Assembly (NCBI GenBank): GCA_949317995.1
Contig: OX439046.1
Coordinates: 38,600,002 to 38,664,001, forward strand
DNA from: Acholoe squamosa
Taxonomy: Eukaryota > Annelida > Polychaeta > Phyllodocida > Polynoidae
DNA: 64,000 nt
Direction: 5' to 3'
The number at the start of each line of letters is the position of its first letter. Within the stretch, counting starts at the first letter, position 1. The translations under genes and the position numbers were made by a program. The notes under the pieces were generated by a model. It was not told where the DNA came from, did no database searches, and saw only the letters and a program-made list of their open reading frames with translations. Shown piece after piece: positions 32,622 to 55,901 of this stretch.

Positions 32622-32660
32622 AGGGCTAGACCAAGGACTGGTTGATGGAATTATTACATC

Positions 32661-32675
32661 CTGGTCACGGCACCA
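32661..32675 (-). other. E3 primer binding site, tRNA-His type
   Basis: In element sense TGGTGCCGTGACCAG starts one base after the 5' LTR. Twelve bases, TGGTGCCGTGAC, are complementary to the 3' end of animal tRNA-His as I remember it (…GTCACGGCACCA). The same 15 bases occur at the E2 and E4 primer sites. Confidence 0.8.
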
Positions 32676-32676
32676 G

Positions 32677-33094
32677 TGTAGTGGTTCGTCTCGTTAAGTT
32701 AGATTAAATCATAACGAAGAGAGAGAAAAGTTTCCGGGTAGGCAACCGAGCTTTTATTTCAGAGCTTGCGTTACATACGATCACAGCCTCAGAGGACTAC
32801 ATGCTGCTAGTGCATTCGGTTACCCTTTCGGGTAACAACCTGGTTGAGCAGTGGGTAAACCACTACTGAGGAACCTAGGGCTAGGACCAGCCTTATATAG
32901 GGGAAAAGCCCGCGAAACTCAGACCGGCCACGTGACGTGTGGCGGACGAGTGGTAGGCCCCCTGGTGTAGTGGATACGAACCCAGAGGCAGGTGCTGCCA
33001 CCTGCCATCCGGATTCCCCCACCACACCCGAAGGACCTAGGTCTGAGTCTCACGGGTGCATGAACGTTAAAGTGTAAAATACCATACCCCTACA
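32677..33094 (-). repeat. E3 5' LTR
   Basis: 418 bases, apparently identical to 23788-24205. The TATA-like CTATATAAGG in element sense lies near 32890-32901, suitable for starting genomic RNA. Confidence 0.92.
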
Positions 33095-33098
33095 CTAT

Positions 33099-33799
33099 TC
33101 ATGGCACAATTTGAAGAGTCCAAGGTATACACCTATAAACTTCAACCACTTATGTGGGTGAGATTTATAGATGACATCTTTTTCATCTGGCCCCACAGCC
33201 AGTCTGAATTAGATGAATTCACGCTCTATTTAAACAAAGTACATCCCACCATAAAATTCACAGTGGCAACCTCCACCACAAAAGTGGATTTTTTAGATGT
33301 CACAGTTTCCATAGACACTGAGGGTAAATTAGAAACTGACCTGTACACCAAACCCACAGACAGTTTCTCGTACCTACATTTCCAGTCAGCACACACGCGA
33401 CATAGTATTCGAGGTATCCCCTATGGACAATTTCTCAGAATAAGACGTGTATGTTCAGATGACCAGAAATTCCTAAAACACTGTATCCAGCGGGGCAAAC
33501 ATTTTGTCCTACGTGGATACCCAGCGGCTTTTATAGCAGAGAGCTTCCATCGAGCCTGTCAACGTGACAGAAAATCTCTACTAGTGCCGAAACCAGGGAA
33601 AACCCTGGACCCAGATGTGGGTAACTACTTAGTCACCACATTTAACCCAGGGTTTAATGAAATCCATAAATTAGCCACAAGGAACTGGGATTTACTTGGT
33701 AAATCATGCAGCACCAGGCAAATTCATGGTCAGGGACTGAAGATGTCCTATAGAAGATCAAAAAGTCTCCGTGACCTTTTGATCCATGGCACAATTTGA
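33099..33799 (+). pseudogene. Penelope-like reverse transcriptase, 3' half
   Basis: The RT resumes right of E3 with motif C RFIDDIFFIW, so the catalytic aspartate pair is intact, and then T-S-T-T-K-V-D-F-L-D-V and the thumb region (LYTKPTDSFSYLHFQSAH, IPYGQFLRIRRVC). The frame ends at a stop near 33797, where the sequence shifts to the frame of the nuclease domain. Confidence 0.85.
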
Positions 33800-34293
33800 G
33801 GCCTGAAGGACCCCTCATCCCCAAGCCCAATTCAAACAGGTGTCTATCTTGGCCGAAATGCAGATATTGTCCACAGATAGATAGGAGTGGCAGGATCATG
33901 TGTTCTGTCACAGGCCGGACCTATACCAGTAAACACAATGTGTGCTGCTCCAGCACCAACCTTATTTACTGCATCACCTGTAAATTGTGTGGCATCCAAT
34001 ATGTCGGCCAGACAGAAAATGCCATCAAAACAAGATTTTCCGACCATTATGGCAAAATTAGCAGAAAGGAATTTTCCAAAAGTGAGGTAGCGCGCCACAT
34101 GAATTGCTGCTCTAATAGAGGTAAAGATGACAAACACAAGGACCTGACCATCCATGTCGTAGACTTTATCCATGCCCACCCTAAGTCCCTGAAGGCCAAA
34201 AAACTCAGGGATCTTATAGAATACAATTGGATCCAACGTTTACACACAAATGCCCCGGGAGGCATTAATGTAAGCGACCCTGGCATCCATTAG
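33796..34293 (+). CDS. Penelope-like GIY-YIG endonuclease domain
   Basis: A 165-codon frame with a Cys-rich linker (CLSWPKCRYCPQID) and the GIY-YIG domain: L-I-Y-C-I-T-C-K-L-C, G-I-Q-Y-V-G-Q-T, then the catalytic-type arginine in K-T-R-F-S-D-H-Y. This is the nuclease of endonuclease-bearing Penelope elements, which nicks the target for priming. It is one frame off the RT upstream, so in this copy it is detached. It ends with G-I-N-V-S-D-P-G-I-H, a typical C-terminal position for such proteins. Confidence 0.85.
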   Translation: MRPEGPLIPKPNSNRCLSWPKCRYCPQIDRSGRIMCSVTGRTYTSKHNVCCSSTNLIYCITCKLCGIQYVGQTENAIKTRFSDHYGKISRKEFSKSEVARHMNCCSNRGKDDKHKDLTIHVVDFIHAHPKSLKAKKLRDLIEYNWIQRLHTNAPGGINVSDPGIH

Positions 34294-34987: not shown

Positions 34988-35004
34988 TTGAAAACTTGAT
35001 AATT

Positions 35005-35398
35005 TAATACTTAGATGAGTACTGTCCTTGGTCTGAAATTGAGATTGTGGACAGAAGAAATAAATGAATGACACATGACATCTTGTCAATGATAAATGAA
35101 CACGAGGACAATGTGGAAATGTTTTCGAAAATTAAGGATGATTATTATCTCAATAAAGCCAGGCAGCTACGTTGTAGAATTAATAAGGCTATCAGGTACT
35201 CAAAGGCCAACCAGGTCAAGTCTGCACTGGAGGAGGCTAAGTCTGACCCAAAGCGATTCTGGAGAGTTTTAAATGGAGTTTTGAAACCAGAGGTGAAAAT
35301 TGCCCCTCCAGAATTGATAGGTGATGATGGTTTTATCAAGTCAGAGCACGAATCTGTAAATTATTTAAATGATTATTTCTCAAATATTGGTGCTAAAC
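35005..35398 (+). pseudogene. LINE-b endonuclease-RT junction fragment
   Basis: Encodes LDEYCPWSEIEIVDR, then a stop where LINE-a has tryptophan, then MTHDILSMINEHED... through SKANQVKSALEEAKSDPKRFW and FSNIGAKL. It joins in frame with 55902 across the LARD. This is the region that LINE-a has partly lost. Confidence 0.85.
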
Positions 35399-35988
35399 TG
35401 TCAATAGATCGTTAAATGACTATTAGTGAGGGAAGACAGAAGCTCAGAGGTCTTCAGTTGATCCAGGTTTATTCCAGTTTGGTACAGAGTGATCATAAGA
35501 TGGTACAGCATGATCACTCACCAAGCTTATCCAGCCAAGCCTATGTATGCCTTAGTATAGGGTGATGCAGCCTCTAGGTCTGTGAGCAAAATAAGATGCT
35601 GAGGCTTGATCCTGGCTAGGTTATATAGTCAGGAGCAAGCCCAGATGACGTCGTGTCTATTTCTGTACTTTCTATTTTTAGTATAGGGAGCGACTCAAAT
35701 ATGCTGAGTCGGTGGTTCTGCTCAGTCCCAATCTGTGGTAGGAGGGGTGAGCTGCTCCTATTGGCTAGGTGAATCTAAATATAGTTGAGTTCCCCAGTGG
35801 GGGATCCACAGGAGGGAGCCTGGGGATTTCCCACTGGAGGAGGGCAGGTGTGAACTCTTCACCCTGCCAAGCTAAAAATAGGTTGACCTTGGTTTGAACT
35901 AGGCTTGTAGGCAGAGCTCTGGATAAGCCTAGTGGTGAAAGGTAAATATATATCGAATAATTGTTATACCCAGAATCGTCCATTGACA
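35399..35988 (-). repeat. LARD 3' LTR
   Basis: 590 bases; differs from 55308-55897 at one site I could find (near 35921). The adjoining tract (35989-36010; GAGTGGGAGTGTGGGGATA in sense) is the likely polypurine tract. Confidence 0.9.
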
Positions 35989-39630: not shown

Positions 39631-41715
39631 TTACAATTTGTAAATCATCAGTTGCTAATTGGTAATCAAATATTGGTGTTCCATGATATTGAGTCTATCT
39701 CTTGATAAACCAATCCGAAGGGGTACAGGGGCAGACAGGTTGGACTAGCTGTGGGTTGTGAAGTGAACAGTCGAACTTTTTACGGGTATTCTAGTACTCA
39801 CATTGCCATTGGTTAATGGAGGTACCTGGGTATCATGACATCAGGTTATGCCATTGACGATATAAGAACGACTGATAGTCTAGTACTAAAGATGGGCACA
39901 TAGGACAGGCCTACCTGGGCTTATTGCATGCTGTAGACGCCATGTGGCTCCTAATCCAGGCACTTGCTCACTGGTTGCGGTGATGTGGTTGGAATTTGAG
40001 AATATTTGTGAAAAAGGCTAAGATGGGGGTGGGCTAAGGCTTATAAACCTGTCCGTGAGGGTGGCTATTTCTCACTTCTTGATCTCCCTATGTTGGTATG
40101 TCTTGCCCTAAAAAGGCTGAGCCTAATTCTATTGGATGGATGCAGTTTGGGCACATATTCCCTTATGCAAATTCTGGAACCTATGCCCCGGTAATAAAGT
40201 TTATAATTCGGATCCTAGGGTCAGGTTTGAGATAAGGTGGAAGTGGGGAGGGTCAGTGTATGTGTCTAAACATTGCTGACCATGAATTCATGTGTGTTTG
40301 AGAAACATCATGCATGGGGGTACTGAGCTGCTCTTAATTGACAGCTCATAAATATGGTGTTCTACCTGCATCACCGTCCTCGTGCTAAACAGAGGTACAA
40401 ACATGGATTGGGCATGGGGGAATACAGACTCCTACAATAGGCGTGTCGACTGGCAATATGCCATACTGGTAAATAGGAGCCCTGAAAAGCTATCTAGCCT
40501 GTGTATGCATGCTTGAAAAGCATGTACCAGAGGATACACTGCCGCAATTTATGTGGCTACCCAACCATAACTGGAACAAGACAGTCCGCATATACGCTTT
40601 CAGTAATGGTTATCATTTTGTTAAGTTTTGTGTTTTGGAGGACAAAAGAGGAAAAAGGGAGATACAGATGGTGTGAGGGTTTTGATCTAAGAGTAATTTA
40701 CAGGATTTAGACCTTAGGGGGTCTAACATAAATTATTCCTGAAGGGGTGGGGAGAGGCCAGCTAGTGTCAGGGGAATTAAATTTTTGTATTGATGCTTGC
40801 AAAAGGATCTAAAGTTCTGGTGACTTTCAATTGATTTGTTTAGAAGATTTGAAGCCAGGAGGCAAACTATAAGAAAAATGGGTAAATGACCGAAAATGGG
40901 GTTGGGTAAAATGGTGGTTAGCTTTGATGTAATTGTATAGTCTGTTGGTAAGGTGATTTGGTTAAATGATTTTGAAAGGTATGCATTGTTGGTATAGGAT
41001 GCAGTATGCAAAACAATCATGCTTTGATAAATATAACCAATGTAAATAGTACATTTGGTAAAATATTACTATAAACGATTTTATCAGTATGGATAAAAAT
41101 ACCTTGCCAAGGTAGTATTTAGTGTGTGACATGGGGGGGAGGGGTAAACTAACATTATTTTTGACTACATAGGTGTAAAAGCCTGAAGTTTTGAAGGTAT
41201 ATCTGCTATGGATTGGGAAGGGGATATTATTATAAATATGTGAAGTGTTCTTGGCTGTGTGTGAGAGTTTTATGATGGACAAATCAATGAGGTGGGGCTT
41301 GTGTGGTATGTTACTAGGCTGCAGTAATGGTGTAGCACTAAGTACAGTAAGGGATGGATGAAGTTTAGTGGGGTGAGAGTTGGGGGGAGGGGGGTGAGTA
41401 AGGATATGTGTGAGGCCTGGTGGTCAGCTGTATTGGAAACAGCTGGTAGGGTGGGTCTATGGGGGGGGGGGAGGGTAGAGGGAGGGGTAAGTGTTAGCTT
41501 TCAGTGATGACCTGACAGGGTGACTGTAGACTATACACTATTTGATGGTGTGATCAGCTGATCAGCTGGGTGTAGTGTTGGTCTAAACTTGTGAAGGTTC
41601 ATGTTTGGATGTTTGAATACAAATGGGTTCAAAGATTTCTTTGATAGCATATGAGTTGCTGTGAAAGAAAGGGTTCAACCTAAAGTATACTACAAAAAGA
41701 ATGAGTCTAAAAGTG

Positions 41716-42079
41716 TGTAATGGTTCGTATTGACTTATATGTTGGGTGGCTCTTTGGCTCGCTTACCACTAGATGTACCAACACAACACGAGTAGTTCGG
41801 GTTGGGCAAAGCCCCAGAAACCCCTACCTCTCGGGTAGGACTTTATTAGATCTCTTTGATAACAAAGTACTAGCGTCTGGACTGGACCATGTCCAGTCCC
41901 CTTCTGCCGCTCGTCCGGCTCCTTAGTAGGAGCTGGACGCGAGGCATGGTGCTGCCCCCTCTTGTACCAACGAGGTATCGCAAAGCGACACCTAGCTAGC
42001 ATAGAAGGAACAAGCACCACACGAACACGTCTCTCGGATGAACGGCACTAATATATATACAATGATGCCGGCCCCTACA
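41716..42079 (-). repeat. E4 3' LTR
   Basis: 364 bases; in element sense TGTAGGGG...CGAACCATTACA. It is preceded in sense by the polypurine tract AGTGGGGGTGG (42080-42090). Confidence 0.93.
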
Positions 42080-42838
42080 CCACCCCCACTAGACTTTACC
42101 TAGGGTTGGGTGTAATTAATAAGTAACTATTGTTGACTTTATACAGTGGTGTTATAAATAAATAGGTAAGTCTATATATACACAGTTCGTATTAAATATA
42201 GAACATTTAAGGGGCATTATAAGTTATATGTACATAATAAGGCATCATCGTATATAACCCGAAGTGTTTATAAATAATAACAAAAATAGGAAGTGGCCCC
42301 TTATGGACCATCGACCTATGGTGGTAATGTTACAAGTGTGTTATTATTAAACATGAGACGCGACGAAGAATATTGGATGTGTAGTAAGGTGATATTAATA
42401 AATTTTTACAATGTTTTTACCGACCCGAGGTGGGGTAAATAACCCGAGAAAAAATTTTGAGTACTTTTACTTACAAGAATATAATATACGATATAAAAAT
42501 AGATTTATACAAAATATGAAATATAGGTGTCCTACCAGGGTAGCAGGATCACCCTTACAATATACCGGACTTCCGGCGAACCTGGAACGACTGGTTTCTG
42601 CAGCTCCACCCGGCGACATGTGTGTGGTGGCAAACCACGTTGCTGTTATGATGTGCCCTGATGAAGATGGGAAGATGGAGACCCGGTTAGATGTTGTAGT
42701 CCTTTGGGTGTTCGGGTTAGCGTCCATCCTCGCTGCAGGTTACGTTCCAGGTATCAGGAGTCCAGCGTAAGGAACAGTGCCTCTGGCATACTAAATGCAT
42801 TTACCCTCGGGTACAAGGAGACACCAACAGATGGACAC
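42080..42838 (-). other. E4 3' UTR
   Basis: Non-coding, AT-rich near the LTR. The part close to ORF3 (42569-42690) is the block shared with the LARD and E2. Small frames on either strand are not convincing. Confidence 0.7.
42569..42690 (-). repeat. Shared 3' UTR block, E4 copy
   Basis: Aligns with 38306-38425 in the LARD over its full length and more weakly with 11349-11443 in E2. In element sense it contains GTGGTTTGCCACCAC, a short hairpin. It begins about 150 bases after the ORF3 stop. Confidence 0.8.
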
Positions 42839-45800
42839 TCAAAGATCTTCAGGATCTGTGTCCATCTTCTCAGCCGGCTCCACTGAGGCAGATGGAGCCG
42901 AGCTGCTACAGCTGCTCGTAGAGAGCACCGCTGAAGCCTCGCTGGGAGTCTCGCTCCCCAAGCTCAAGGCCCTCATCACTGCGGACGGACTGTCCATTGC
43001 CTCGGATGCTGGTGCAGCAACCGTGGCAGTTGGGACAGCCCGGGTGTTCCAAGTGGGGGGCGGGAGCAGGAGAGCTGCCGGAACTGGCGGAGCAGCCGGG
43101 ACCGGTGGAGTGGCCAGAACCGGTGGAGTAGCCGGGGCTGGCGGGGCATTCGGGGGTATATCTGGTACGAAGATAAGAGACGACGGTAAGCCGTCCCACT
43201 CCTCCAGATGTTTCCCGAATGCCAGGAAAAACTTGAGGTCAGCCTCCTTAAATCGATGGATATATCTGGAGTTTTCAGCTTCGTGAAACTCTTTAAGCTT
43301 TTCGGCTTCCTTCTGCTTCCGCCGGCAGGACTCGAGGGCTTCCTCGACCTTCTTCCTTTCCAGCTCCCTTATTTTCTCTTCCTCCCGCCTCTGGATCTCG
43401 TAGACCAGATTGACGGTGGCTTCAGTCATCACACGCCAGTAGTCAACAGACTGCTGGCGGTGCAATGCCTGCCATTCTGCCATCAGGTCATTCTGGATCT
43501 GAACCGTTCGGACATCGCGGTGGTCGACGAACGTATTCGGATCCTGAAGACCTGACAGGGTACCGGAGATCAGTTCCATTAGGGGTACCCGAGGGCCCGT
43601 CGGTGGAACTATCACTGGTGGTGGCGCTGGGGCCTCCACTGAGACAGGCGGGGTGCCTGTTGGAGGAGCAGACGGGCCCTCCACCGTGATGCCTCCTCGG
43701 CCTCGGCCACCACCCGGGGAGCCTCGGGTGGACTCCAGCCCACCGCGGCCTCTACCACGGGTTTTGGCCCGGCCCAAGGAGGTAAGGACCTGCGACTCGG
43801 GTCCAGCCGGTCCCATTGAAGGGAACTTCGCCGCGTACTCGCTGTACGTGGGGCGCTTGCCGGAGGATCCCTCTCCAGCCCACCAAGTGGAATACCCGGA
43901 TGGGGGAGCGAAGAGTTCGCCCCCATCATCCAGGCCGCCAGAGGCTTCGCCCGGGCGTTGTTCCGTGGGTGCAGGTGTGGAGGTGGCTGGAGTCGCCGGT
44001 GCGGTCGCCTGGCTACCCGACCTGCGGGCCTGGTTGCCAGGCATATCTAGAGCCGAGACTTGTTGTCCCGACTCGCGACGATCAGCTGGGTTGGCTGGTC
44101 TGGGCTGGTCCTTGCCACCCGAAGGGCTCACGGACCGGTCTGCTCGAGTCCTCTTGGAAGCAGTAGTCGTGACTGTGCCTCCGTTTGGACCTTTAGAGCG
44201 GGCTTTGGCCTTCTCTCGCTTGTCGTCTCCTCGCCACTTTTTCACCTTCAGGTGCACCTCACTGGGCATCCCGAATTTCGTGGACGAGGAGTTCGTCTGG
44301 AAATACGTCAGCAAGTTGCCGCTCTTCCACGAGCAGAATCCGGTCTCGAATGCCTGCTCTTTCACTTCTTTAATGCTCAGCGCGGACCAATTAGCAAGGA
44401 GCTCGCTGAAGCACTTGATGGCTCGTTTCCTGGTCTTCTCCAGGCCGATGCCATGGGCCTTCTGCAAGTGCAGAGCCATGTCTCGGCGCCGGTGAGTGCT
44501 GAACGAGCCATCACAATGTTTACTCGGGCGGTCCCCGAGCACACACATCATGACAGGCTTGTGATGCATATGGTACTCGACGATGTGCCGAGCGAAGCGG
44601 GGCTTCGTCTCGAACACCTTCTCACCCGTGAGAGCCAGCTGGCAAGACTCGAACGGGCACCTTCGGCGGTTGCCGGTTGGTCCCCATTGGGTCATTGCCC
44701 ACTGGACTTTCGTCCGGGCCTCGTAGCTATAGACTGAGCCTAATTTGGACTTGAGCTGGTCAATCCAAATCAGGTAGAACTTGCCTACTGGCGTATCCGA
44801 GGGGCCGGACTTCATCCACTCCTCGTCATCGCTGTCACCGTCCTTATTGACGGCGCTCGGACACATGTAGTGGACTGTGTCATAAGCACAGTCCGCGAAG
44901 CAGCGGGGAGTCCGTTCCTTGAACCCCTCGGCTGCATTCTTCCACATCCACTTCTGATTGTCGTCCTTGGGAACATCCGTGGTCATTTCTTCCCACGTTG
45001 TCACGGACTCCAAATCAGATTTGGCAGACTCGGGCAGCTCTGGATCGCTTTCGCTTTCCTCACTGTCCGTGTATATGTTAGCTCCCCTACGGCTGGCTCG
45101 GCTGGAGGTGGTAGTACCAGTCGAAGCCTTGGTAGGGGACTTCGCCTTTGCACCCGACGTGCTGGCTGCAGAAGATGCAGTAACCGAGGTGGCTACCGTG
45201 GTGGTTGTAGTAGTGGGAGCGGGCGTCTTCGGTTTGCCCTTACCCCTCGGCTTGGTGGGGGGCGTGGGCTCTGCCGGAGACGCTTTCGCTCCATTCTTTT
45301 TCTTCCGGCGCACAACCTTAGTTGGTTGGGCCGGAACTTCAGGACTGGAATCCGACTCGCGTCGGCTCCTGTCCACTGTCCGAGGGCTCCTCCTTCCGCT
45401 GACCGGGGAGTCAGAGTCGGAAGAGATCTCAGATTTTTGTTGGGCCTGCTGCTTGCGATGGGCCCGGCGAGCCGCGGTGAGCTCCTTCTGCTGCTTGGCA
45501 AGCTCGGCTCGCTTTGCCTCTACAGCAGCCTGCTGGCGCGAGATGTCCTCTTCCGAGATCTCGCCAGGTGCCTCCGGGATGTCGGCAGCTGGGTCGGTCT
45601 CGGTTGTGGACCTCTCGACGGCGATGCGGACATCCTCAGCCTCCAGATCGCTCTCAGTGAGAGGACCCTTGGGCGCAGGTTTACGGGTCAATCGCTTGAC
45701 CCGGTCGGTTTCCACCGACGACAAGGTAACTGTGGAGTCTGTATCCATGTCGGATTCGGACTCCCTTAACTCCGCGGCCTTCTGGATGATGCCCGCAGAG

Positions 45801-46348
45801 ATCAAGACGGCTCGAGCTAAATTCTCGTTAGTCGCCATATTCTCCGCCAACTTCAGATAGTTGCGGAGCCAAGAAACTGGCATGTTGTCAGCCAGCTCGT
45901 CACTGCACGAGTCCATTACCATAGTCTTGAGATCATCTGGTATGGGCTCGGGCACGCCCTCTTCCACCGCCATGGGCCCGCATCCGAACATGGAGGCGTG
46001 CATAGGGATGTACGTACCCCAGGAGGTGTACACGATACCTTCCTGGCGATCAACGTGTGCTAGACGTCTGATCTGAGTCCTGAATCCCGGAGGATACATT
46101 GGAATGTCCAGGACATCCACTTTGCTACCCGAAGCGGCTGTTGTAGACGGGCGCTCCGGGCGTGGCGGTGGTGGAGGTGGCATTCTCTCCCGGTCGGTTG
46201 CCTCGGCCATAGCCGAGAGCGTCCGGGCGGCCTCCTCTGTCGAAGAATCCATAGATTCCTCGACCCGAGACGAGACCTTCGGGTCCTCGTCTTGTTCCAA
46301 CGGAATGTTGGCAGTTTGACGCGCAGCGTCAATCGTTCCCTGTGCCAT
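42839..46348 (-). CDS. E4 third frame (ORF3): twin zinc-finger, coiled-coil protein in the env position
   Basis: An open frame of about 1,169 codons starting at an ATG in good Kozak context (GCCATGG; MAQGTIDAARQ). The frame stays open 7 codons upstream without an ATG. By residue: acidic S/T/E-rich start (1-75); N-terminal domain (about 80-170, with MPVSWLRNYLKLAENM); K/A/S/T/P-rich basic low complexity (about 260-430); central domain (about 465-555, NAAEGF...CPSAVNKDGDSDDEEWM); finger one C-x4-C...H-x4-H (CPFESC...RHIVEYHMHH, from about 562); finger two C-x8-C...H-x4-H (to about 625); R/G/P-rich linker with GRGRGG motifs (about 860-900); coiled coil (about 980-1040); FLAFGKHLEEWDG (about 1045); P/A-rich and acidic end. 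No signal peptide, membrane segment or furin site. I infer a soluble nucleic-acid-binding protein; its function is unknown. It is likely expressed from a spliced or internally started RNA. Confidence 0.85.
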   Translation of the reverse strand: MAQGTIDAARQTANIPLEQDEDPKVSSRVEESMDSSTEEAARTLSAMAEATDRERMPPPPPPRPERPSTTAASGSKVDVLDIPMYPPGFRTQIRRLAHVDRQEGIVYTSWGTYIPMHASMFGCGPMAVEEGVPEPIPDDLKTMVMDSCSDELADNMPVSWLRNYLKLAENMATNENLARAVLISAGIIQKAAELRESESDMDTDSTVTLSSVETDRVKRLTRKPAPKGPLTESDLEAEDVRIAVERSTTETDPAADIPEAPGEISEEDISRQQAAVEAKRAELAKQQKELTAARRAHRKQQAQQKSEISSDSDSPVSGRRSPRTVDRSRRESDSSPEVPAQPTKVVRRKKKNGAKASPAEPTPPTKPRGKGKPKTPAPTTTTTTVATSVTASSAASTSGAKAKSPTKASTGTTTSSRASRRGANIYTDSEESESDPELPESAKSDLESVTTWEEMTTDVPKDDNQKWMWKNAAEGFKERTPRCFADCAYDTVHYMCPSAVNKDGDSDDEEWMKSGPSDTPVGKFYLIWIDQLKSKLGSVYSYEARTKVQWAMTQWGPTGNRRRCPFESCQLALTGEKVFETKPRFARHIVEYHMHHKPVMMCVLGDRPSKHCDGSFSTHRRRDMALHLQKAHGIGLEKTRKRAIKCFSELLANWSALSIKEVKEQAFETGFCSWKSGNLLTYFQTNSSSTKFGMPSEVHLKVKKWRGDDKREKAKARSKGPNGGTVTTTASKRTRADRSVSPSGGKDQPRPANPADRRESGQQVSALDMPGNQARRSGSQATAPATPATSTPAPTEQRPGEASGGLDDGGELFAPPSGYSTWWAGEGSSGKRPTYSEYAAKFPSMGPAGPESQVLTSLGRAKTRGRGRGGLESTRGSPGGGRGRGGITVEGPSAPPTGTPPVSVEAPAPPPVIVPPTGPRVPLMELISGTLSGLQDPNTFVDHRDVRTVQIQNDLMAEWQALHRQQSVDYWRVMTEATVNLVYEIQRREEEKIRELERKKVEEALESCRRKQKEAEKLKEFHEAENSRYIHRFKEADLKFFLAFGKHLEEWDGLPSSLIFVPDIPPNAPPAPATPPVLATPPVPAAPPVPAALLLPPPTWNTRAVPTATVAAPASEAMDSPSAVMRALSLGSETPSEASAVLSTSSCSSSAPSASVEPAEKMDTDPEDL

Positions 46349-46864
46349 GGCACCGGGTCCGACTTCCAAAATAAATTGGCAAGTTTTGTTGGACTCCTCC
46401 CGAAGGATTCGTCCAACAGAGAGGGTTTGGGTTAGCTAGGCTAACACGACAGCTACAGGCTGTACAACCGCCGACAAATAACTAGAGCAAAAACGGGTGG
46501 CGTCTAACCACCACGAGTCCGCTCTAGTTATGACCAGTATGACGTCAGACCTCTCGTCTCGCGAGATCCCGCCATGGCTATCCGGTGACCTAGTTCCGCG
46601 CTTTCCCGCCACACCAGCAGCGCCACCTAGGGAACTAGATCCGAACCAACATTCGACTCGACATGTGAGACGCGGCCTACTACCCGAGTGCTATCGTCTG
46701 GAGCTTGGCGGTGTATACAACGCTTCAAAGCGAATGTACCGGTTAATCCGACCGCCACTCACGGGATACAGCCACCCGGGGAGGGCGCGTTCGACATCTC
46801 TAGCCGTGGAACGTATGTTGCCTGCCTATGGCGGACAACACGCAGCAGCTCGTTGTGTACTGAG
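46349..46864 (-). other. E4 spacer between pol and ORF3, with the conserved post-pol element
   Basis: Non-coding. At 46833-46858 the minus strand reads ACACAACGAG, eight intervening bases, then GTGTTGTC, starting 7 bases after the pol end; this is the E4 copy of the family-wide inverted-repeat element. The end of the spacer is pyrimidine-rich just before the ORF3 ATG (TTTATTTTGGAAG in sense), which could serve as a splice acceptor; that is only a guess. Confidence 0.6.
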
Positions 46865-49800
46865 TTAGGTTACAGCAGACCTCAACCGGGGGCTGCGTCT
46901 AACGCCTTCGGTTAGCATTTTATTTTTCCCGGCTTTACGTACGGCCTTTTCTGGATCTCGCTTAGTCAAAGCGGGACCCTTCCCATATGTAATGCCTTCA
47001 CTCAGCGAGACTTTCTTCCATTTCTTACGATTAGGTCGTTTCCTGGCCTTCGTCTTCTTTTTTACCATAACCTCGTCTCCCGGCGTCTTTCTCGGCTGGC
47101 CTCTAGGGCGCTTCGTCGGTACTACCACGCTCGGTCCACTAGGGACAGATTCAGGTGGTTTGTAGCCGAACTCCCTCTCCGCCTCTTCGCGCCCCTTCCA
47201 GGGCCGAAGTTTTCCGACATTTGTCTTCCATTTTCTACCCGTCAGGCAGTCCTCTATCATCACCGTGGACTCGGAGATGACACGAACGATTTTAAACGGA
47301 CCTTCCCAAGGCGTTACGAGCTTCAGCTTATCCAGCGGCTCGTAGTACCTTAGTACTTTGTCCCCAACATTAAAACGAATTCGTTTAGCATTGGTGTCAT
47401 AGCCCACCTTCTGCCACTTCGCACTCTTCAGCAGTTCTTTCCGAACGGCCTCATATGCCTGTTTGAACCGGTCCCTTAATGACTCTACAAACAGCACCGT
47501 GCAGGGCGCCTCCGGGTCTATTCCAACCACTCCATACACTAAGTCGGCGGGCATTATGATGTCCTCGCCGAACACTAGCATGTTTGGGGTGCAGTTAGTT
47601 GATGAATGGACAGTGTTGTTGTAGGCATGTACTACAAACTCGCACTGTTCATCCCAGTCGTCCTGGTGGGTATTAACCAGGGGCTTTAGTACTTGTATGA
47701 GGGTTCTATTGAAGCGCTCTACCTGCCCATCCGACTGTGGTCGGTACGGGTTTGTTCGGGTCTTACAAATGGCTAGGTAATGGCACATTTCCTGCCAAAG
47801 TTCTGACTCGAACTCCCTTCCTTGGTCACTGTGCATCATAAGGGGAACACCCAAATGCAGCACCCAGCCTTTCACAAACGCCTCCGCGCATGTGGCGGCT
47901 TTGTGGTTAGGAAGGGGGAACACCCGAGTGTACTTAGTATAATAGTCGGTTACGACCATCATACAAGTATTGTCTCGCGGCGTCGTCTTAATCCCACTGA
48001 TGATGTCTATCGCTACTCGAGCGAATCTGACACCAAACAATTCCTGTGATAAGGGTTGCTTACCCAGCCCGGGTCCCAGTTTGTTTTTACAACAATCCGG
48101 GCAAGTGGCGATCCACCGGAGCAGGTCGCCTCTCATACCGGGCCAGTAGTAACGCCTTTGTAGACGCTCTATCGACCTTCTCTTACCGAAATGGCCACTC
48201 GTTTGGTGGCCATGGCAATAATACATGATATCCCTCCTCATCGGGGCGGGTATCACTATTTGCAACAGCCTACCGTTGGTGGGAGTTGTCTTCCACCTAC
48301 ATAGTATGCTGTCTCGGATCTCTAGCTCGGTCCATTGAGCTAGCAACCGCCTCGCTTCCCTATCCTCCAGGGAAACTAGAGGCCTTGCCGGTTTAATGCC
48401 TGACCGTAGGTATTCCATTATGCGCGCAGTGGTGGGGTCTGACTGTTGAAACTTCTTGATGGTCTCCGGGGACCAATCGAGATAGCTGCATACAGCCTCC
48501 TCCCAGGGGATACGGGGGGTGGTATAATTAAATACCAGCCCGGCTACCACAGCATTGTGGGCCCCGCAGTCTTCACATGTGGCATTTTGGCACCTTCGGA
48601 TAGGCCGTCTTGACAAGGCATCCGCATTGATGTGTTTAGCACCGGGTCGGTGCTCTATTTGTTTATGCTCTAATCCGAATTTGGATAGGTGAGCTAACCA
48701 ACGTCCAATCATCCCCTCGGCGTCCTTAAAGTTAAGGAGCCACCTAAGAGACGAATGGTCTGTTCTTAAAGTAAAGTCACTTCCCCAAAGGAAATGCTTG
48801 AACTTCTTCGTATACACCACCACAGCGAGGAGTTCTCGCTTGGTGGTACAATAATTTCGCTGTGTCTTGCTTAACGTGTTGCTAGCAAATGCTATTGGCA
48901 CTTCGACTCCCTCTTGGACCTGAGAGAGAGCTGCCCCAATCGCATCATTGCTCGCATCGGTGTCTAAGATGAAATGTCCCTCGGGAGTGGGATATTTCAA
49001 CACGGGTGTATTCCTAAATAAATCTTTTATTTTATTAAAAGACTCTTCTTGCTCGCTGGTCCATGGGAATGGGTCCCGTGCCCTACCCGGGGTCCAGTGA
49101 GCTAAGCACTGCATGGGGAAGCTGACACGAGAGTAATTCGGTATGAAATCACGATAATAGGAACAAAATCCTAAAAATGATCTCACCTCCTTAGCACTCG
49201 TTGGTCTTTCCCAATTTTCTACAGCTTCTAATTTTTCCGGATCCGCACTCACCCCGTTAGGAGTAATGATCCTTCCCAAGTATGTAATGGTTTTCTTAAA
49301 CAAATTACATTTCTTGGGTTTAAGTTTAAGACCGTTTGATAGTATCCGGTCGAGGACTAATTGCAGATTCGCCAGGCATTCCTTGAATGACTTGCCGAAC
49401 ACAACCACATCATCCAAGTAAACCAGGCATTTCTTCCACAAAAGGTCACTCAGTAAGGATTCCATCATAGCCTCGAATGTAGCGGGGGCGTTACACAATC
49501 CGAAGGGTAAGACATTATACTCGAATAGCCCCATATGACTGGAGAATGCTGTCTTCTCCTTGTCATTGGGGTGCATTGGTATTTGCCAATATCCGGACTG
49601 TAAATCCAAGGTACAGAACCATTGGTTTCCGCCCAAGCTATCTAAAATCTCGTCTATCCTTGGTAAAGGATACGAGTTCTTCTTTGTTATACCGTTCAAT
49701 TTCCGGTAGTCGACACAAAAGCGGATTGTACCGTCTTTCTTAGTAGTCATACAAACAGGGCTGGACCAGGGACTCGAGCTAGGCACGATTACCCCTAGGT

Positions 49801-51100
49801 CCAACTGTTTTTGTATTTGCTCTTCACAGATTAACTTCTTCTTGAGAGGAAGTCTACGATACGGGATTTTAAAAGGTTTCTCGTTGCCCACATCTATGGT
49901 GTGCAACACCTTATCGGATCTACCCACCGGGCCTCCTTCCCTACCAAAAGCACCTTCGTACTTTTGTAGAAGTCTCGCTAGGCAATCCTTATCGTCCGTA
50001 TTCTTTAAATCTGACTGATCAATCAGCTTTTGGAATTCTTCATCCATGGGATGATGACTAACTGGGTTTAGTGGTTTGTTAAATTTAGCCTCGGCGACAT
50101 GTTCTACCGAACTCATCCTTCCAACACTGTCGCCTCGCCTCAAGTAAACCACCGAACCACTTCGGTTAGTTATGGGTAATACAGACCAAGCTGCATTAGC
50201 CACTAATGTATCCACTGAGTCTAACCCGATGCTTGACAAATACACCGTGTCGGGTTCGTAGACTCCAGTTTCATTCCTTTGAGCCATGGACCCGCCACAA
50301 AGGACATCGCAAGTGGTACCCGGTGGGATCTTCACCGTATGTACCACTGATGCGACCGAAGATACCTGTCTCAATACGCATTGGACATGCAAGCCATACG
50401 GGCTCCGTATACCCATCGTACCGTCCCTCGGGTCCAAGACGGCCCCGTATAAGCTTGCAAAATCCAATCCGAGGATTCCGTCATCACTAACCTCTGCTAT
50501 AGTTGGCGAAAGAACAAATTCTTTGCCTCCTATACGGATAGGCATAAACGTCCTACCAAATGTACGCATACTGCTTCCGTCGGCCGTGCAAGCATTTACC
50601 CCCGTTTTGAGGTTCTCATGGCTGCCGGCCACCGAATCGAAGAATCTTTTGGACACACATGAATGACTAGCTCCAGTATCCACTAAGAATTCCCCCACCC
50701 GGCCTTCCACAGATATGGGTACATACCACCGTCTCCCCCCTAAAGGCGAGGGGTTACTGGTAAACTGGTGAAAGTCTCCCGAATCACCAAGATTCAATCC
50801 GAGTCCTCTCAGGAATTCCAGACACGGATGACTTGGGGGAAGGCGTGTCCCACACACTCGAATCAACTCTTTGATCCATCCTTCCTCTCCCCTAGTGCGG
50901 CCACTCGCCTCCATATGATCGCTCCTGCACATATCAACACTAGGGTCCCTGGCCCCGGCCGAGGTGCAGGGGTGCGCACCCTCAGCCACCCGGCCTCCAG
51001 GTGTAATTGACTCGAAATCTTCCACCGGGACACCCCCGGTAGCATTTTGGCATTCGTTCCCACTCGGGGCTATGTCAGATGCCGTTGACACAACCCCCAC
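46865..51100 (-). CDS. E4 pol: protease, RT, RNase H, integrase
   Basis: An open frame of about 1,411 codons. By residue: E/G/S-rich linker (1-75); retropepsin with LVDTGASHSC (about 135-145); RT (about 440-690) with RFCVDYRKLNG, FGLCNAPATFEAMM and YLDDVVVFG; RNase H with DTDASNDAIGAALSQ (about 713) to DHSSLRWLLNF; integrase zinc domain HGHQTSGHFGKR...CPDCCKNK (about 965-1000); DDE core D-I-I-S-G, MHSDQGREFE, QSDGQVERFNR (about 1030-1130); GPF module WEGPFKIV (about 1262); basic tail ending RRSPRLRSAVT. The first codon of the frame is GTG and overlaps the gag stop by one base (TAGTG), so pol is in another frame than gag and is probably made by frameshifting or reinitiation, as in related elements. 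Confidence 0.92.
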   Translation of the reverse strand: MGVVSTASDIAPSGNECQNATGGVPVEDFESITPGGRVAEGAHPCTSAGARDPSVDMCRSDHMEASGRTRGEEGWIKELIRVCGTRLPPSHPCLEFLRGLGLNLGDSGDFHQFTSNPSPLGGRRWYVPISVEGRVGEFLVDTGASHSCVSKRFFDSVAGSHENLKTGVNACTADGSSMRTFGRTFMPIRIGGKEFVLSPTIAEVSDDGILGLDFASLYGAVLDPRDGTMGIRSPYGLHVQCVLRQVSSVASVVHTVKIPPGTTCDVLCGGSMAQRNETGVYEPDTVYLSSIGLDSVDTLVANAAWSVLPITNRSGSVVYLRRGDSVGRMSSVEHVAEAKFNKPLNPVSHHPMDEEFQKLIDQSDLKNTDDKDCLARLLQKYEGAFGREGGPVGRSDKVLHTIDVGNEKPFKIPYRRLPLKKKLICEEQIQKQLDLGVIVPSSSPWSSPVCMTTKKDGTIRFCVDYRKLNGITKKNSYPLPRIDEILDSLGGNQWFCTLDLQSGYWQIPMHPNDKEKTAFSSHMGLFEYNVLPFGLCNAPATFEAMMESLLSDLLWKKCLVYLDDVVVFGKSFKECLANLQLVLDRILSNGLKLKPKKCNLFKKTITYLGRIITPNGVSADPEKLEAVENWERPTSAKEVRSFLGFCSYYRDFIPNYSRVSFPMQCLAHWTPGRARDPFPWTSEQEESFNKIKDLFRNTPVLKYPTPEGHFILDTDASNDAIGAALSQVQEGVEVPIAFASNTLSKTQRNYCTTKRELLAVVVYTKKFKHFLWGSDFTLRTDHSSLRWLLNFKDAEGMIGRWLAHLSKFGLEHKQIEHRPGAKHINADALSRRPIRRCQNATCEDCGAHNAVVAGLVFNYTTPRIPWEEAVCSYLDWSPETIKKFQQSDPTTARIMEYLRSGIKPARPLVSLEDREARRLLAQWTELEIRDSILCRWKTTPTNGRLLQIVIPAPMRRDIMYYCHGHQTSGHFGKRRSIERLQRRYYWPGMRGDLLRWIATCPDCCKNKLGPGLGKQPLSQELFGVRFARVAIDIISGIKTTPRDNTCMMVVTDYYTKYTRVFPLPNHKAATCAEAFVKGWVLHLGVPLMMHSDQGREFESELWQEMCHYLAICKTRTNPYRPQSDGQVERFNRTLIQVLKPLVNTHQDDWDEQCEFVVHAYNNTVHSSTNCTPNMLVFGEDIIMPADLVYGVVGIDPEAPCTVLFVESLRDRFKQAYEAVRKELLKSAKWQKVGYDTNAKRIRFNVGDKVLRYYEPLDKLKLVTPWEGPFKIVRVISESTVMIEDCLTGRKWKTNVGKLRPWKGREEAEREFGYKPPESVPSGPSVVVPTKRPRGQPRKTPGDEVMVKKKTKARKRPNRKKWKKVSLSEGITYGKGPALTKRDPEKAVRKAGKNKMLTEGVRRSPRLRSAVT

Positions 51101-53748
51101 TAGTTTTCCACATCTGTGGAATCCGTAGCATTCTCCCTTCCTATGCCGTCGTCTTCGGCTTCATAGAAGGCAGCCATTACCGGCTTAGTAGCGGTACATT
51201 CAGATGAGTAGTGTCCCATGCGCTGGCACCTGAAACACTTAACCGTTCGGCGATCCACCCGGGGTCTTTGCCGATTGGCTTGGATGGCATCTGTAATTTT
51301 CTTACACATGTCTTCCAGAAGTTTGGTCATGTCCGAGGACTGACTCTTCGCTTTGTCAGCGCTTACTGTGGGCTTGACCGCCTTCTCGACAGCCTTCGGG
51401 TCACTCTTGACCTCGGATGAAGGTCTAGAGTCCCTTTGTTTATTGAAAGATTTCCTGGGAATATACTTCCTACCTGAAGTATTCTTCCTTAATTGCATCG
51501 AACAGAAGGTGCCGTCTTCCTGTTCGATATCAATCAACTCGAAGTCGTCTGAGGGAGTATTGACCTCAGACTGCTGGGTCACCGATGCCAGGGGTACCAA
51601 GCCGCTGGCATTAGGTATGTCCCCAGCTAACATAGCTCGCTTCTTCACGGCCATATCTATACCATTAAATATGCCGTGTAGTGTTATGCCTTCTTTCCAG
51701 GCATCCCTCGCTGCTAATTGTTCATCTCGGTCTCTTAGACCCTTGACGAATTGTGTGATCAAATCGTCCATATACCAGTCCTGGTTTTCAGTACCGGGTC
51801 TGGCCTTACTTAGCAGGGCATGGAGTTCCATACCGTATGCTCTGAAAGCTTCATTCGGCTTCTGTGTGCGTTTCTTAAAACGGACCATCGGGTCCTCCTT
51901 GACCATGTTGCATAACAGTCCACTAGCAGTTTCTACTAACTGCTCAAAACTCCCAACGAGGCCGTACCAAGTTCGCCATTGCTCTACAGCCATGCGACCC
52001 GGCCCGCCTTTCAGACATCTCACCAGATGTGGCTTGGCCTCGTATGGGGTCCATCCATTACAATTCATTACATCGATGAAATCTTCAAACCACTCTTTCC
52101 ATGGCCGAGTACCGTCATATTCTCTAGGAATAACGGCTACCCTTCGGGCAGAATTGTGAGCATACATCAATCTAGTGCATTGCTGTTTGCTCCATTCAAT
52201 CGCCTTGGTTTCATTCAAGGTTCGATTGCCCCCTATACCACCGAAGCTCGAATTGCCCGGTGGAGGCGGTGGTGGAGGTTGTGTATACGTCCACTGTGTA
52301 CCACTGTGGTTCGTATAGCTCGCACCACCCTGGTTGGGGCCGGTACCCAAGGTACCGCTATAGCCTGTGGCACCCGAAGCACCGCCCCCCCCTTGCGCAC
52401 CTTGGTAACCGCCGTCGGATGGCTGGTTTCCCGTTGACTGGCCGCCATCGTTCGATGGATTGGGTTGGGTGTTGTCATTACCAGCACCCAGCCCCGGGTC
52501 GTTACTCGGATCCACATGAATGTGGAATCCACTGGTCTCCGCACTACTATCGGAAGCCTCTCTAGGGGTATAGTCCGGGTCCAGGTTGTGGACTATGGGC
52601 ACTTCACTTATCCGGACTCTACTAGTTCGGCCATGCTTATCCTGGGTTCTGATGTAAACGCCCCCTTGATCTACATTCCGCGAAGCATTATCATTTACAA
52701 AAGGATTATACTGCGGATTCTTCGGTGTAGAACAGGAGACCGGGTCGCCCTGTTTCACGAACGTCGAGTTCGGGTTTGTATCCCTACTCGCCGGAGGGGC
52801 ATGCGTTTGCTCTTGCTCCTGTAAATAACTCTCCATAGCAGACTTATTTATTGTGAGGGTAGCTACGTCTGTAGTCAGGTTTCGCTGTTCCTCCCTTAGC
52901 TGTGCGTTTTCTGCCAAGATTTCGGATCGAATCTTTTCATTTTCCGCCACAGCTCGGTTTCTTTCTTCTATTTTGGATTGGGCTAACATGAATTGTTCAT
53001 GTTGCCTCTTAGCCTGCAACTCCACCTGTTCCTTGGCTTTCAAATAGGCCTGGGTATTTTTATACCCGGGACCCATCCGACGTCCGTAGATAGACTTGCG
53101 ACTGCCTCCAGGGTTAAACATGGAGTCAGACAAGCCTTCGTCTAGAGATCGGCCTAGGTGATGCCTTTCCGAGCTTTTCGGTCCGGTACCACTAGGCTTA
53201 TTTTTTGCTTTCGCGCCTGGGACTATTGCGTCCCTTTTGGTTTTGCCATCGTCGCTGTCATGGTCCGACGATGTCATTAGTGGGGCTACTTCGTTTCCAC
53301 CACCCGGTGCTGAACCCTGGGGGGTTGCAGTACGCTGCATAGGGCTTTGTGCAATTGGTGTACCCAAGCCGCTAGCCGAGCCCGTTGGTACCATAGGACC
53401 TAGCTGGCGTCTGCTAGTTATAACTTGGGACCAATCGCTCAAGTCTAAAGTTGGGGGTCTTAACACACCCCTAAACAATCCGGTATCCGGTACTCCTGTT
53501 TGGGGTGTAGCCGGATACAATTTTACGATGCCATCTCTGGTGGCATTGTCCATCAGGTCGGGTGTAGAAAAAATATTTCGTACACCCTCCTGATTAAACA
53601 TTTGTTGTTGACCGGGTTTCCAGTCTAACAACAGATGCTGGGATGTGTAATCATCCTCTTCGAATCCCTCTAGCCCAGGGCTGGGGGGATCCGCTTCGGG
53701 TTTCCCGAGGCTTTCGGCCAATGTGGCCGCGCACCACCCCCGAACCAA
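51100..53748 (-). CDS. E4 gag
   Basis: An open frame of about 882 codons in which the first ATG is at 53601; upstream the frame is open to the primer site, so the true start is uncertain. By residue: S/P-rich start; SMFNPGGS motif (about 215, also at the start of E1 gag as SVFNPGGS); coiled coil (about 230-305, with long E/Q/R heptads); PFVNDNASRN (about 350); G/N/S-rich linker; capsid-like retrotransposon gag domain (about 510-690, PWKEWFEDF, GGPGRMAVEQW, FRAYGMELHALL); basic linker; one CCHC knuckle CFRCQRMGHYSSEC (about 837-850). It would form the particle and package element RNA. Confidence 0.9.
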   Translation of the reverse strand: MVRGWCAATLAESLGKPEADPPSPGLEGFEEDDYTSQHLLLDWKPGQQQMFNQEGVRNIFSTPDLMDNATRDGIVKLYPATPQTGVPDTGLFRGVLRPPTLDLSDWSQVITSRRQLGPMVPTGSASGLGTPIAQSPMQRTATPQGSAPGGGNEVAPLMTSSDHDSDDGKTKRDAIVPGAKAKNKPSGTGPKSSERHHLGRSLDEGLSDSMFNPGGSRKSIYGRRMGPGYKNTQAYLKAKEQVELQAKRQHEQFMLAQSKIEERNRAVAENEKIRSEILAENAQLREEQRNLTTDVATLTINKSAMESYLQEQEQTHAPPASRDTNPNSTFVKQGDPVSCSTPKNPQYNPFVNDNASRNVDQGGVYIRTQDKHGRTSRVRISEVPIVHNLDPDYTPREASDSSAETSGFHIHVDPSNDPGLGAGNDNTQPNPSNDGGQSTGNQPSDGGYQGAQGGGGASGATGYSGTLGTGPNQGGASYTNHSGTQWTYTQPPPPPPPGNSSFGGIGGNRTLNETKAIEWSKQQCTRLMYAHNSARRVAVIPREYDGTRPWKEWFEDFIDVMNCNGWTPYEAKPHLVRCLKGGPGRMAVEQWRTWYGLVGSFEQLVETASGLLCNMVKEDPMVRFKKRTQKPNEAFRAYGMELHALLSKARPGTENQDWYMDDLITQFVKGLRDRDEQLAARDAWKEGITLHGIFNGIDMAVKKRAMLAGDIPNASGLVPLASVTQQSEVNTPSDDFELIDIEQEDGTFCSMQLRKNTSGRKYIPRKSFNKQRDSRPSSEVKSDPKAVEKAVKPTVSADKAKSQSSDMTKLLEDMCKKITDAIQANRQRPRVDRRTVKCFRCQRMGHYSSECTATKPVMAAFYEAEDDGIGRENATDSTDVEN

Positions 53749-53763
53749 CTGGTCACGGCACCA
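53749..53763 (-). other. E4 primer binding site, tRNA-His type
   Basis: In element sense TGGTGCCGTGACCAG, one base after the 5' LTR. Twelve bases match the complement of the tRNA-His 3' end. Confidence 0.8.
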
Positions 53764-53764
53764 G

Positions 53765-54128
53765 TGTAATGGTTCGTATTGACTTATATGTTGGGTGGCT
53801 CTTTGGCTCGCTTACCACTAGATGTACCAACACAACACGAGTAGTTCGGGTTGGGCAAAGCCCCAGAAACCCCTACCTCTCGGGTAGGACTTTATTAGAT
53901 CTCTTTGATAACAAAGTACTAGCGTCTGGACTGGACCATGTCCAGTCCCCTTCTGCCGCTCGTCCGGCTCCTTAGTAGGAGCTGGACGCGAGGCATGGTG
54001 CTGCCCCCTCTTGTACCAACGAGGTATCGCAAAGCGACACCTAGCTAGCATAGAAGGAACAAGCACCACACGAACACGTCTCTCGGATGAACGGCACTAA
54101 TATATATACAATGATGCCGGCCCCTACA
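53765..54128 (-). repeat. E4 5' LTR
   Basis: 364 bases, apparently identical to 41716-42079. In element sense an AT-rich TGTATATATATT near the start may be the TATA region. Confidence 0.93.
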
Positions 54129-54132
54129 AGTG

Positions 54133-55307
54133 TAATAGTGGTTTGAATTTTGTTTGAATTTCGTGAAGAAAGACTAGATTTTGGTCCAATATGAATGTGA
54201 AAGACCAATGATATAATTTTGACATGAAGCTTTGGATAATATGAAAACATACTATTCTGTAGAAATAGGTTCTATGTGACGACAGGAGTCATCTGACCAT
54301 CTGAGAGGGAAAGGGGAGAAAAGGGGGAGGGGTGGGGTCATACTCAGGTCATGGAGATGACCAGGGGGTGGTATATGGGAGAGTGGAGTGGAGGGGGAGG
54401 TAAGTTTCCTCTGATAGGAGGCACGTGACTATTCATGTAGAAGGTAGTGGATGAGGGGGGGGGGGGTCGGAACTGACTGGAGGTATATGGGAGAGGGAGG
54501 GGGGGGGGGGTCTGGACTGACCACAGATGGTATAGGTTATAGGGAAATACAAAGTAGCGGTTTCTTATTGAATTCTGATACTGGGACACATATCAGGTTA
54601 TTGGGGTGGGTTGGTTCAAAAGTGATATCAAATTGGGCCTAAAATTGTTGGGTTTCTTATGGATTAATACAGGATGGTTATTGTTGTCAGAATGAGCCTA
54701 AAATGTTAGGGTTTCTCATGGACTGATATAGGATGGCTATTTGGGAAATAGGAAGGTATTTTTACCTGGGACAGGAGCAGTTCACTGTGAGTGAGTTGCT
54801 AATAAGAGGGTTTTACATGTACATGGAGAGATCATAGAGTATTATACAAGAGATCCTGCATGACAAAATAGTAACCTGTGACCAGAACCTGTTTTGCAAT
54901 TATGTCAGTATTAATGTGGACTTCCTACCTTTGTGCCCATAAGTTGCTGGTGCCAATCATCAGGTGGATATAATTGTTGCTGTATGGATTGAATCCTCCT
55001 TGTGCCATTTGAGAGCATGATGTATATATGGCATATAGTCTCTGGTACTCTGGTCTACTCTGGTGTATGTGTGGAGTAGGTGGTGATACTACCTGTGGTG
55101 GTGGTAGTGCTGGTGGTTGGAGTAACACACAGGAGGAGCTACAGGAGGAGGACGCCCGCTACAGTGAGTAGTAGTAGTAGTGGTATGTATAGGCTGTAGG
55201 CTGCTGGAGGCTAGGAGCTGTTGGCTGGCATTCTGGTGTTGGTAGAATCCTGCTATTGTTCTTGTAAGAGGTATTAATAGTGGGATTTTAATTAAGTTCT
55301 CCACCAG
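54133..55307 (-). other. LARD interior, smaller part next to its 5' LTR, no gene
   Basis: About 1.2 kb with no credible frame. On the plus strand there are G-runs of about 9-12 bases near 54455 and 54500, and a GGT/GTA-rich tract near 55080-55190. The last bases read, in element sense, CTGGTGGAGAACTTAATT, the likely primer binding site (55290-55306); I could not assign its tRNA. Confidence 0.65.
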
Positions 55308-55897
55308 TGTCAATAGATCGTTAAATGACTATTAGTGAGGGAAGACAGAAGCTCAGAGGTCTTCAGTTGATCCAGGTTTATTCCAGTTTGGTACAGAGTG
55401 ATCATAAGATGGTACAGCATGATCACTCACCAAGCTTATCCAGCCAAGCCTATGTATGCCTTAGTATAGGGTGATGCAGCCTCTAGGTCTGTGAGCAAAA
55501 TAAGATGCTGAGGCTTGATCCTGGCTAGGTTATATAGTCAGGAGCAAGCCCAGATGACGTCGTGTCTATTTCTGTACTTTCTATTTTTAGTATAGGGAGC
55601 GACTCAAATATGCTGAGTCGGTGGTTCTGCTCAGTCCCAATCTGTGGTAGGAGGGGTGAGCTGCTCCTATTGGCTAGGTGAATCTAAATATAGTTGAGTT
55701 CCCCAGTGGGGGATCCACAGGAGGGAGCCTGGGGATTTCCCACTGGAGGAGGGCAGGTGTGAACTCTTCACCCTGCCAAGCTAAAAATAGGTTGACCTTG
55801 GTTTGAACTAGGCTTGTAGGCAGAGCTGTGGATAAGCCTAGTGGTGAAAGGTAAATATATATCGAATAATTGTTATACCCAGAATCGTCCATTGACA
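55308..55897 (-). repeat. LARD 5' LTR
   Basis: 590 bases, pairing with 35399-35988 with one visible difference. It is followed directly by AAAC and the rest of LINE-b. Confidence 0.9.
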
Positions 55898-55901
55898 AAA
55901 C

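Follow-up and report, generated by a model that had tools for sequence, protein, structure and literature searches.

The stretch of DNA analysed here (the window) comprises 64,000 nucleotides of the polynoid annelid Acholoe squamosa (assembly GCA_949317995.1, contig OX439046.1, positions 38,600,002 to 38,664,001 of the forward strand) and contains four copies, E1 to E4, of Ty3/gypsy elements in which a third open reading frame, ORF3, follows pol. Copy E4, which looks intact, is a 12.4-kb element on the minus strand (41716–54128) that encodes gag (51100–53601, 833 aa, with a single CCHC knuckle), pol (46865–50932, 1355 aa) and, beyond a spacer of 516 nt (46349–46864), a separate ORF3 of 1169 aa that starts at the ATG at 46348 and covers positions 42839–46348, as given in the initial annotation. 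The two long terminal repeats (LTRs) of E4, each of 364 bp, are identical to each other and show TG...CA ends; in element sense, the 5' LTR lies at 53765–54128 and the 3' LTR at 41716–42079, with an AGTG target duplication at 54129–54132 and 41712–41715, respectively. The primer binding site TGGTGCCGTGACC (53751–53763) is separated from the 5' LTR by one base and is similar to a tRNA-His site, and the polypurine tract, AGTGGGGGTGG in element sense (42080–42090), adjoins the 3' LTR. All these parts lie on the minus strand.

Pfam analysis of the E4 pol revealed the domains gag-asp_proteas (residues 72–158), RVT_1 (398–554), RT_RNaseH (650–752), Integrase_H2C2 (894–951) and rve (975–1065), that is, the order protease, reverse transcriptase (RT), RNase H and integrase of the Ty3/gypsy elements (Metaviridae), to which the TG..CA LTR pair, the target duplication, the primer binding site and the polypurine tract also correspond. 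At its C-terminus, this pol carries an AT-hook-like RGQPRK (47087–47104, minus strand) and the sequence RRSPRL. With loose patterns, an AT-hook-like motif was detected at the C-terminus of 20 of the 28 aligned pols of the lineage, and 19 of the 28 have a tail that resembles RRSxRL.

The homology of ORF3 across the four window copies is beyond doubt. In BLASTP comparisons, the E4 protein matched that of E3 with E = 1e-36 with compositional adjustment and 1e-51 without it, and, also without adjustment, two pieces of E2 (E = 1.8e-51 and 9e-34) and pieces of E1 (E = 3e-15 and 3e-8). Identities across the window comparisons were of only 19–26%, whereas the pols of E4 and E3 are 70% identical, so the description of the four third frames as strongly diverged yet related was borne out. 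A very long frame had been claimed for all four copies, and this holds for E4 and for E3, where ORF3 starts with the ATG at 29193 and is open over 1225 aa (25516–29193, minus strand). In contrast, E2 and E1 are broken elements: the homologous ORF3 of E2 (11571–15016, minus strand) is interrupted by an early stop, with frames at 13259–14929 and 11571–13535, and that of E1 (7342–9668, plus strand) is split into at least three pieces.

From its N- to its C-terminus, the E4 protein presents an N-terminal domain, a basic low-complexity stretch, a central domain with the EEW motif, two C2H2-like fingers (aa 564–633), a Pro-rich linker with FPSMGPAGPESQ, and a Pro-free stretch (aa 938–1054), likely a coiled coil, ending in FFLAFGKHLEEWDG. 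The initial annotation proposed a module order common to the four copies, and the order itself stood, with some modules lost or incomplete. The N-terminal W-x2-3-[ND]Y module, the NxxxGF/NF motif and the second finger were found in all four copies, as was EEW[ML] by alignment (a stricter pattern search caught two). PPxI is present in three of them, with PSAV at that place in E4; finger 1 is complete in three, the E1 pieces retaining RHVVEEHMH alone; and FxxFG..WDG is likewise present in three, not being seen in the E1 pieces read.

The fingers follow the patterns C-x4-C (C-x2-C in the outside relative L001, described below) ... [FLM]-x-R-H-[ILV]-V-E-x-H for finger 1 and C-x8+-C ... [ML]-x2-H-x4-H (x3 in L001) for finger 2. 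Alignment A4, which comprises five sequences, shows R-H-x-V-E-x-H, C, C, T, H and H as invariant positions, and the Cys-Cys-His-His order of the ligands was conserved, in finger 2 of all five copies and in the complete finger 1 of four, L001 included, with atypical spacings. Near the C-terminus, a stretch free of Pro and poor in Gly, of 117 residues in E4 and 123 in E3, contains the motif FxxFG....WDG, and it is from this long stretch that the C-terminal module looks like a coiled coil.

No Pfam family was matched by ORF3 above the cut-off, only a few chance-level lines being obtained (best E = 0.049), in agreement with the earlier view of an unknown family; neither envelope nor capsid-like families were among the matches, and no Pfam-recognisable enzyme domain (GDSL, DEDDy) appeared at E ≤ 1. 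Against PDB, ORF3 gave a single match, on the charged, low-complexity stretch 270–412 (E = 0.0039), and the finger profile gave another at E = 1.5. Two protein database searches, one scoring the 7999 candidates with most words in common and the other scoring 652, gave no relative of ORF3; this silence is weak evidence, because such searches need exact words of five residues, few of which are shared at 20–30% identity. No relative was found in scans of viral contigs, with either ORF3 or pol queries, or in plasmids and phages with the E4 ORF3. In the literature, searched by titles and the starts of abstracts in mostly open-access sources outside Repbase, no gypsy third ORF with this layout was found among the entries listed. 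As far as these searches reach, ORF3 is a new protein family in a known position.

Nor does ORF3 look like an envelope. When the hydropathy of E4, E3, L001 and the broken-up pieces was scanned, neither a clear membrane segment nor, in the open copies, a signal peptide-like start was detected, which agrees with the initial annotation. The highest mean over 19 residues was 1.39 in E4 and 0.96 in E3, and the top of all the pieces was 1.66, in the N-terminal piece of E2; a hydrophobic stretch in one E1 frame sits upstream of the ATG of that frame. The envelope was rejected as a candidate on this basis. That ORF3 could be a degenerate or very diverged envelope is most improbable, given that the open copies of E4, E3 and L001 have no signal peptide-like start or clear membrane segment and that the protein combines paired finger patterns with basic and Pro-rich linkers and no Pfam envelope match.

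A scan of contigs with the 28-row pol profile A2 recovered 15 loci, all of them in bacterial or archaeal records and 14 labelled as metagenome-assembled genomes (MAGs), which look like eukaryotic contamination. One of these, L001, is a contig of 13,374 bp filed under a Calditrichota MAG, with a 91-bp overlap of its ends, that holds a gypsy element in full or nearly so. It encodes gag, preceded by a primer-site pattern almost the same as that of E4, pol, and then, after a spacer of 666 nt, a third frame of 1051 aa. The enzyme part of its pol (P0048) is 55% identical to that of E4, with 46% over the best segment of the contig scan. A finger profile made from the central/finger domain of the window ORF3 pieces alone and run on outside sequence, a check proposed in the initial annotation, matched this third frame, beside pol, with E = 6.6e-9; when the L001 protein was shuffled 200 times, the best score was E = 4.2, and the best other ORF reached E = 0.47. 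The finger, GPExQ-like and FG..WDG modules appear in L001 in the same order as in the window, and the W-x2-[ND]Y module was not recognisable there. In the remaining 14 loci no finger-profile match was better than E = 0.47, L001 being the only outside element found with ORF3.

Weak single-sequence matches, unmasked and uncorrected, to L003, L007, L008, L009 and L012 (best 2.6e-4) were taken as low complexity, as was a match of the E4 ORF3 to the end of the L001 gag (3e-5). Large extra frames in L013 and L005 were also discarded as candidates, since by eye they correspond to gag, to the start of protease and RT with a dUTPase-like stretch, and to RING/B-box-like proteins. In L005 (5458–9454), two large frames after pol, of RING and B-box type by eye, may be accessory genes that belong to another kind of gypsy element.

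In the protein database, relatives of pol of up to 78% identity were found among the best 120 of 6278 matches (8000 scored), without genomic context, and the abundance of close relatives points to a lineage that occurs widely in unnamed sequence data. A tree of 31 pols (29 of those 120 proteins together with E3 and E4) paired the L001 pol with P0043 (100/100), and this pair joined the 16-row group to which E3 and E4 belong (87/98), making a group of 18 rows with support 99/97. If ORF3 was inherited vertically, this grouping dates it to the ancestor of the 18 rows, where it was probably already present; ORF3 is thus probably a long-standing gene of a single Ty3/gypsy lineage and not a capture at one locus. 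The initial annotation had supposed an accessory protein spread across the lineage and had named a host gene present at one locus only as the outcome that would speak against it. The presence of three of the modules beside pol in the diverged L001, in unchanged order, favours the former, and the latter was not observed.

A long spacer separates pol from ORF3 in these elements, with 516 nt in E4, 554 nt in E3 (29194–29747, minus strand), about 540 nt in E2 (15017–15554, minus strand) and the 666 nt of L001. The motif (A)CACAACGAG, of 9–10 nt, was located on the minus strand at 46849–46858 in E4, 29731–29740 in E3 and 15535–15543 in E2 (read from 15543), and at 6332–6341 in L001; counted from the pol stop, it starts after 7 nt in E4, 8 nt in E3, 11 nt in E2 and 84 nt in L001, with a variant in E1. 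It is the single 9-mer shared by at least four of the five spacers, and none was obtained in 200 shuffle sets. E4, E3 and L001 carry the longer form ACACAACGAG (46858–46849 in E4, 29740–29731 in E3), which is found nowhere else in the window (two matches compared to 0.06 expected) and is absent from the 14 remaining contig loci. Termination, insulation or an RNA signal are candidate roles for it. A strong hairpin precedes the ORF3 ATG in E3 (z = -3.7) and L001 (z = -3.6); as the value for E4 (z = -1.5) is not significant, we do not make it a main claim. Rfam analysis of positions 41000–55000 gave two matches, both far under the gathering score.

In addition, promoter-like motifs cluster at positions 255–415 of the spacers, differing by copy: E2F-, BANP- and CRE-like in E4, E2F, E-box and YY1 in E3 and E1, NRF1 in E2, and NF-Y in L001. 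The spacers hold 11 such motifs, compared to a shuffle mean of 4.3 and with none of 300 shuffles reaching 11; in coding parts, the rate was of 0.3–1.3 per 580 nt. The conserved spacer motif and this cluster between pol and ORF3 are new here, and the latter suggests that ORF3 has a promoter of its own.

From these data, we consider it somewhat probable that ORF3 is an element-encoded nuclear regulator that binds nucleic acids, similar in its role to the CERV protein discussed below, with no claim of relatedness. A protein of ~1050–1230 aa with a pair of C2H2-like finger patterns, both atypical, and a coiled-coil-like C-terminal module, it would most likely be translated from its own short mRNA, initiated at a promoter in the pol–ORF3 spacer as the motifs there indicate. 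It would then enter the nucleus by means of its basic stretches and multimerise through the coiled coil, and its fingers would bind the element's own nucleic acid, RNA or DNA, regulating the expression of the element. Within this reading, the handling of full-length RNA, either its nuclear export or its protection as for CERV, is the leading version, held tentatively; LTR transactivation or relief from silencing is less likely than this, and the remaining confidence goes to a nuclear regulator of another kind. RNA handling was ranked above transactivation because no words common to the LTR and the spacer were found beyond chance in E4, E3 and L001, a result that makes a binding site present in both less likely.

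That negative result also counts against this reading, and several other points do so with it. Zinc binding, nuclear location and multimerisation are predictions from sequence patterns and analogy. No Pfam finger family was matched by ORF3 at E ≤ 1, nor at E ≤ 10 for the five members of A4, so that zinc binding is deduced from the residue pattern, and the net charge of the protein varies from -3 in E4 and -9 in E3 to +45 in L001. The link to L001 is also uneven, as the C-terminal profile matched its third frame with a domain E of 0.0035 and a whole-protein E of 0.1, under the HMMER inclusion threshold (best shuffle 2.2). Moreover, in single-sequence searches that frame was reached with an E2 piece only (E = 0.0033); the proteins of E4 and E3 did not find it at E ≤ 0.1, nor did tblastn at 1e-3. 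As for the promoter, the motifs had been spotted by eye ahead of counting, for which reason the count is support and not proof; with E2F left out, eight motifs remain, a number reached in 18 of 2000 random draws.

Among the alternatives, the one that survives best, though we hold it unlikely, is that ORF3 is a structural or particle-associated protein, such as a second nucleic-acid-binding packaging protein apart from gag, acting in the cytoplasm. Like gag and unlike pol, ORF3 diverges fast (in the segments compared with E4, identities were of 19–26% for ORF3, 24–38% for gag and 51–81% for pol), and its likely coiled coil and finger patterns would suit such a task in an element with only one CCHC knuckle in the E4 gag. 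However, no capsid-like Pfam match was obtained, a promoter-like spacer would yield an RNA not bound to scale with gag, and the basic stretches of ORF3 suit a nuclear protein.

Slightly less likely again is a DNA-binding factor that aids integration or the choice of target alongside the integrase. The finger patterns are of DNA-binding style, and DNA contact seems to matter for this lineage, judging from the AT-hook-like motif in 20 of the 28 pols. However, this same motif may already provide the DNA contact, and ORF3 is a separate frame past a long spacer, not fused to the integrase. With only two target duplications seen, AGTG and CTAT, a shared target can be neither argued for nor argued against.

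It appears more doubtful still that ORF3 is a nuclear gene captured from the host that the element does not need. LTR elements do acquire extra ORFs, as in the passages compared on bdelloid rotifers (PMC5408684), but the main modules of ORF3 are kept across elements whose pols are only ~50% identical. Furthermore, no cellular relative was found, in searches that are weak at such divergence.

The role of nuclear regulator that we favour for ORF3 has its closest parallel in CERV, a nuclear protein of the Ty3/gypsy element Cer1 of C. elegans that is needed for the export of genomic RNA and is, in the passages compared, multimeric in models and fast-diverging (PMC10309623); its authors ask whether other 3' ORFs act analogously. 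Among the literature passages compared, CERV is the clearest case of a non-envelope protein at the 3' position with a worked-out role. Like CERV, ORF3 is a large sense ORF between pol and the 3' LTR that shows no clear membrane segment and does not look like an envelope, and CERV likewise diverges fast together with gag and joins a helical part with a leucine zipper to a Cys-rich part (PMC10309623). According to the same passages, CERV differs in its size (517 aa compared to ~1050–1230 aa), in being made from a spliced mRNA that shares gag exons, while an ATG of its own and a spacer with promoter-like motifs precede ORF3, and in a G-protein-like domain, both proteins being compared by description only (PMC10309623). 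A match to a described gypsy accessory or envelope protein, the other outcome that the initial annotation had set against novelty, was not seen, the CERV sequence lying outside the comparison.

Other third ORFs resemble ORF3 in part, as far as the passages compared describe them. Gene23 of the maize Ty3/gypsy element Grande encodes a nuclear protein with its own promoter between pol and the 3' LTR; it belongs to plants and is antisense to gag-pol, whereas ORF3 is sense (PMC7264820). The ORF3s of the bdelloid rotifer elements TelKA, Vesta and Juno are also lineage-specific third ORFs after pol, but they encode a paramyxovirus-like env, a GDSL esterase, a DEDDy exonuclease or small transmembrane/coiled-coil proteins, and the ORF3 described here matches no such Pfam family (PMC5408684). 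Similarly, sORF2 of the MDG1 group is an accessory ORF of gypsy elements without env, although it encodes a membrane protein of ~70 aa upstream of gag, in contrast to the large ORF3 without a clear membrane segment (PMC11952523). If ORF3 is indeed such a regulator, there would be a second old family of regulators, unrelated in appearance and apparently driven by its own promoter, and this would point to simple retrotransposons gaining, more than once, regulatory genes of the type known from complex retroviruses. Such a family, in which finger residues are invariant and a spacer motif is conserved, would also offer a clear set of sequences for telling roles in export, transactivation and integration apart by ordinary experiments.

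In foamy viruses, an internal promoter is paired with the transactivator Tas, a regulator encoded near the 3' end. Foamy viruses are retroviruses with env, and the likeness of ORF3 to them lies in gene position and a putative internal promoter, with no words common to LTR and spacer beyond chance in the ORF3 elements. The foamy virus internal promoter and Tas are both named in the figure legends of PMC7828637. As a tentative proposal, a two-stage plan could have evolved here independently of retroviruses, in which the internal promoter would give ORF3, a multimeric zinc-finger regulator, and this in turn nuclear control of the genomic RNA made from the LTR, as exerted by the tat, rev and tas genes of complex retroviruses, with ORF3 founding a new, widespread protein family of env-less retroelements.

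Finally, the window shows further features, among them the structure of the element E3. E3 (23788–33094, minus strand) has identical LTRs (23788–24205 and 32677–33094), a CTAT target duplication of 4 bp and a kept primer binding site, while gag, protease and pol are absent up to just before the RT domain (around codon 378 of the E4 pol). It thus appears as an internally deleted element in which the LTR and primer site are followed by the RT domain; the deletion, together with the identical LTRs and the target duplication, indicates that E3, with its ORF3 intact, may have transposed in trans. Directly beside its insertion, at 33071–34293 (plus strand), lies a remnant that resembles a Penelope-like element with, by eye, an RT part and a GIY-YIG-like part. 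Fragments of LINEs, CR1/Jockey-like by eye, were located at 17504–19538 (minus strand), 34988–35399 and 55820–57536 (both plus strand); they are 95–98% alike over the matched stretches, and one of them separates parts of the pol of E2. At 58111–60584 (minus strand), the lineage has a fifth gag, which shares 34% identity with that of E4 and precedes the beginning of a pol region.

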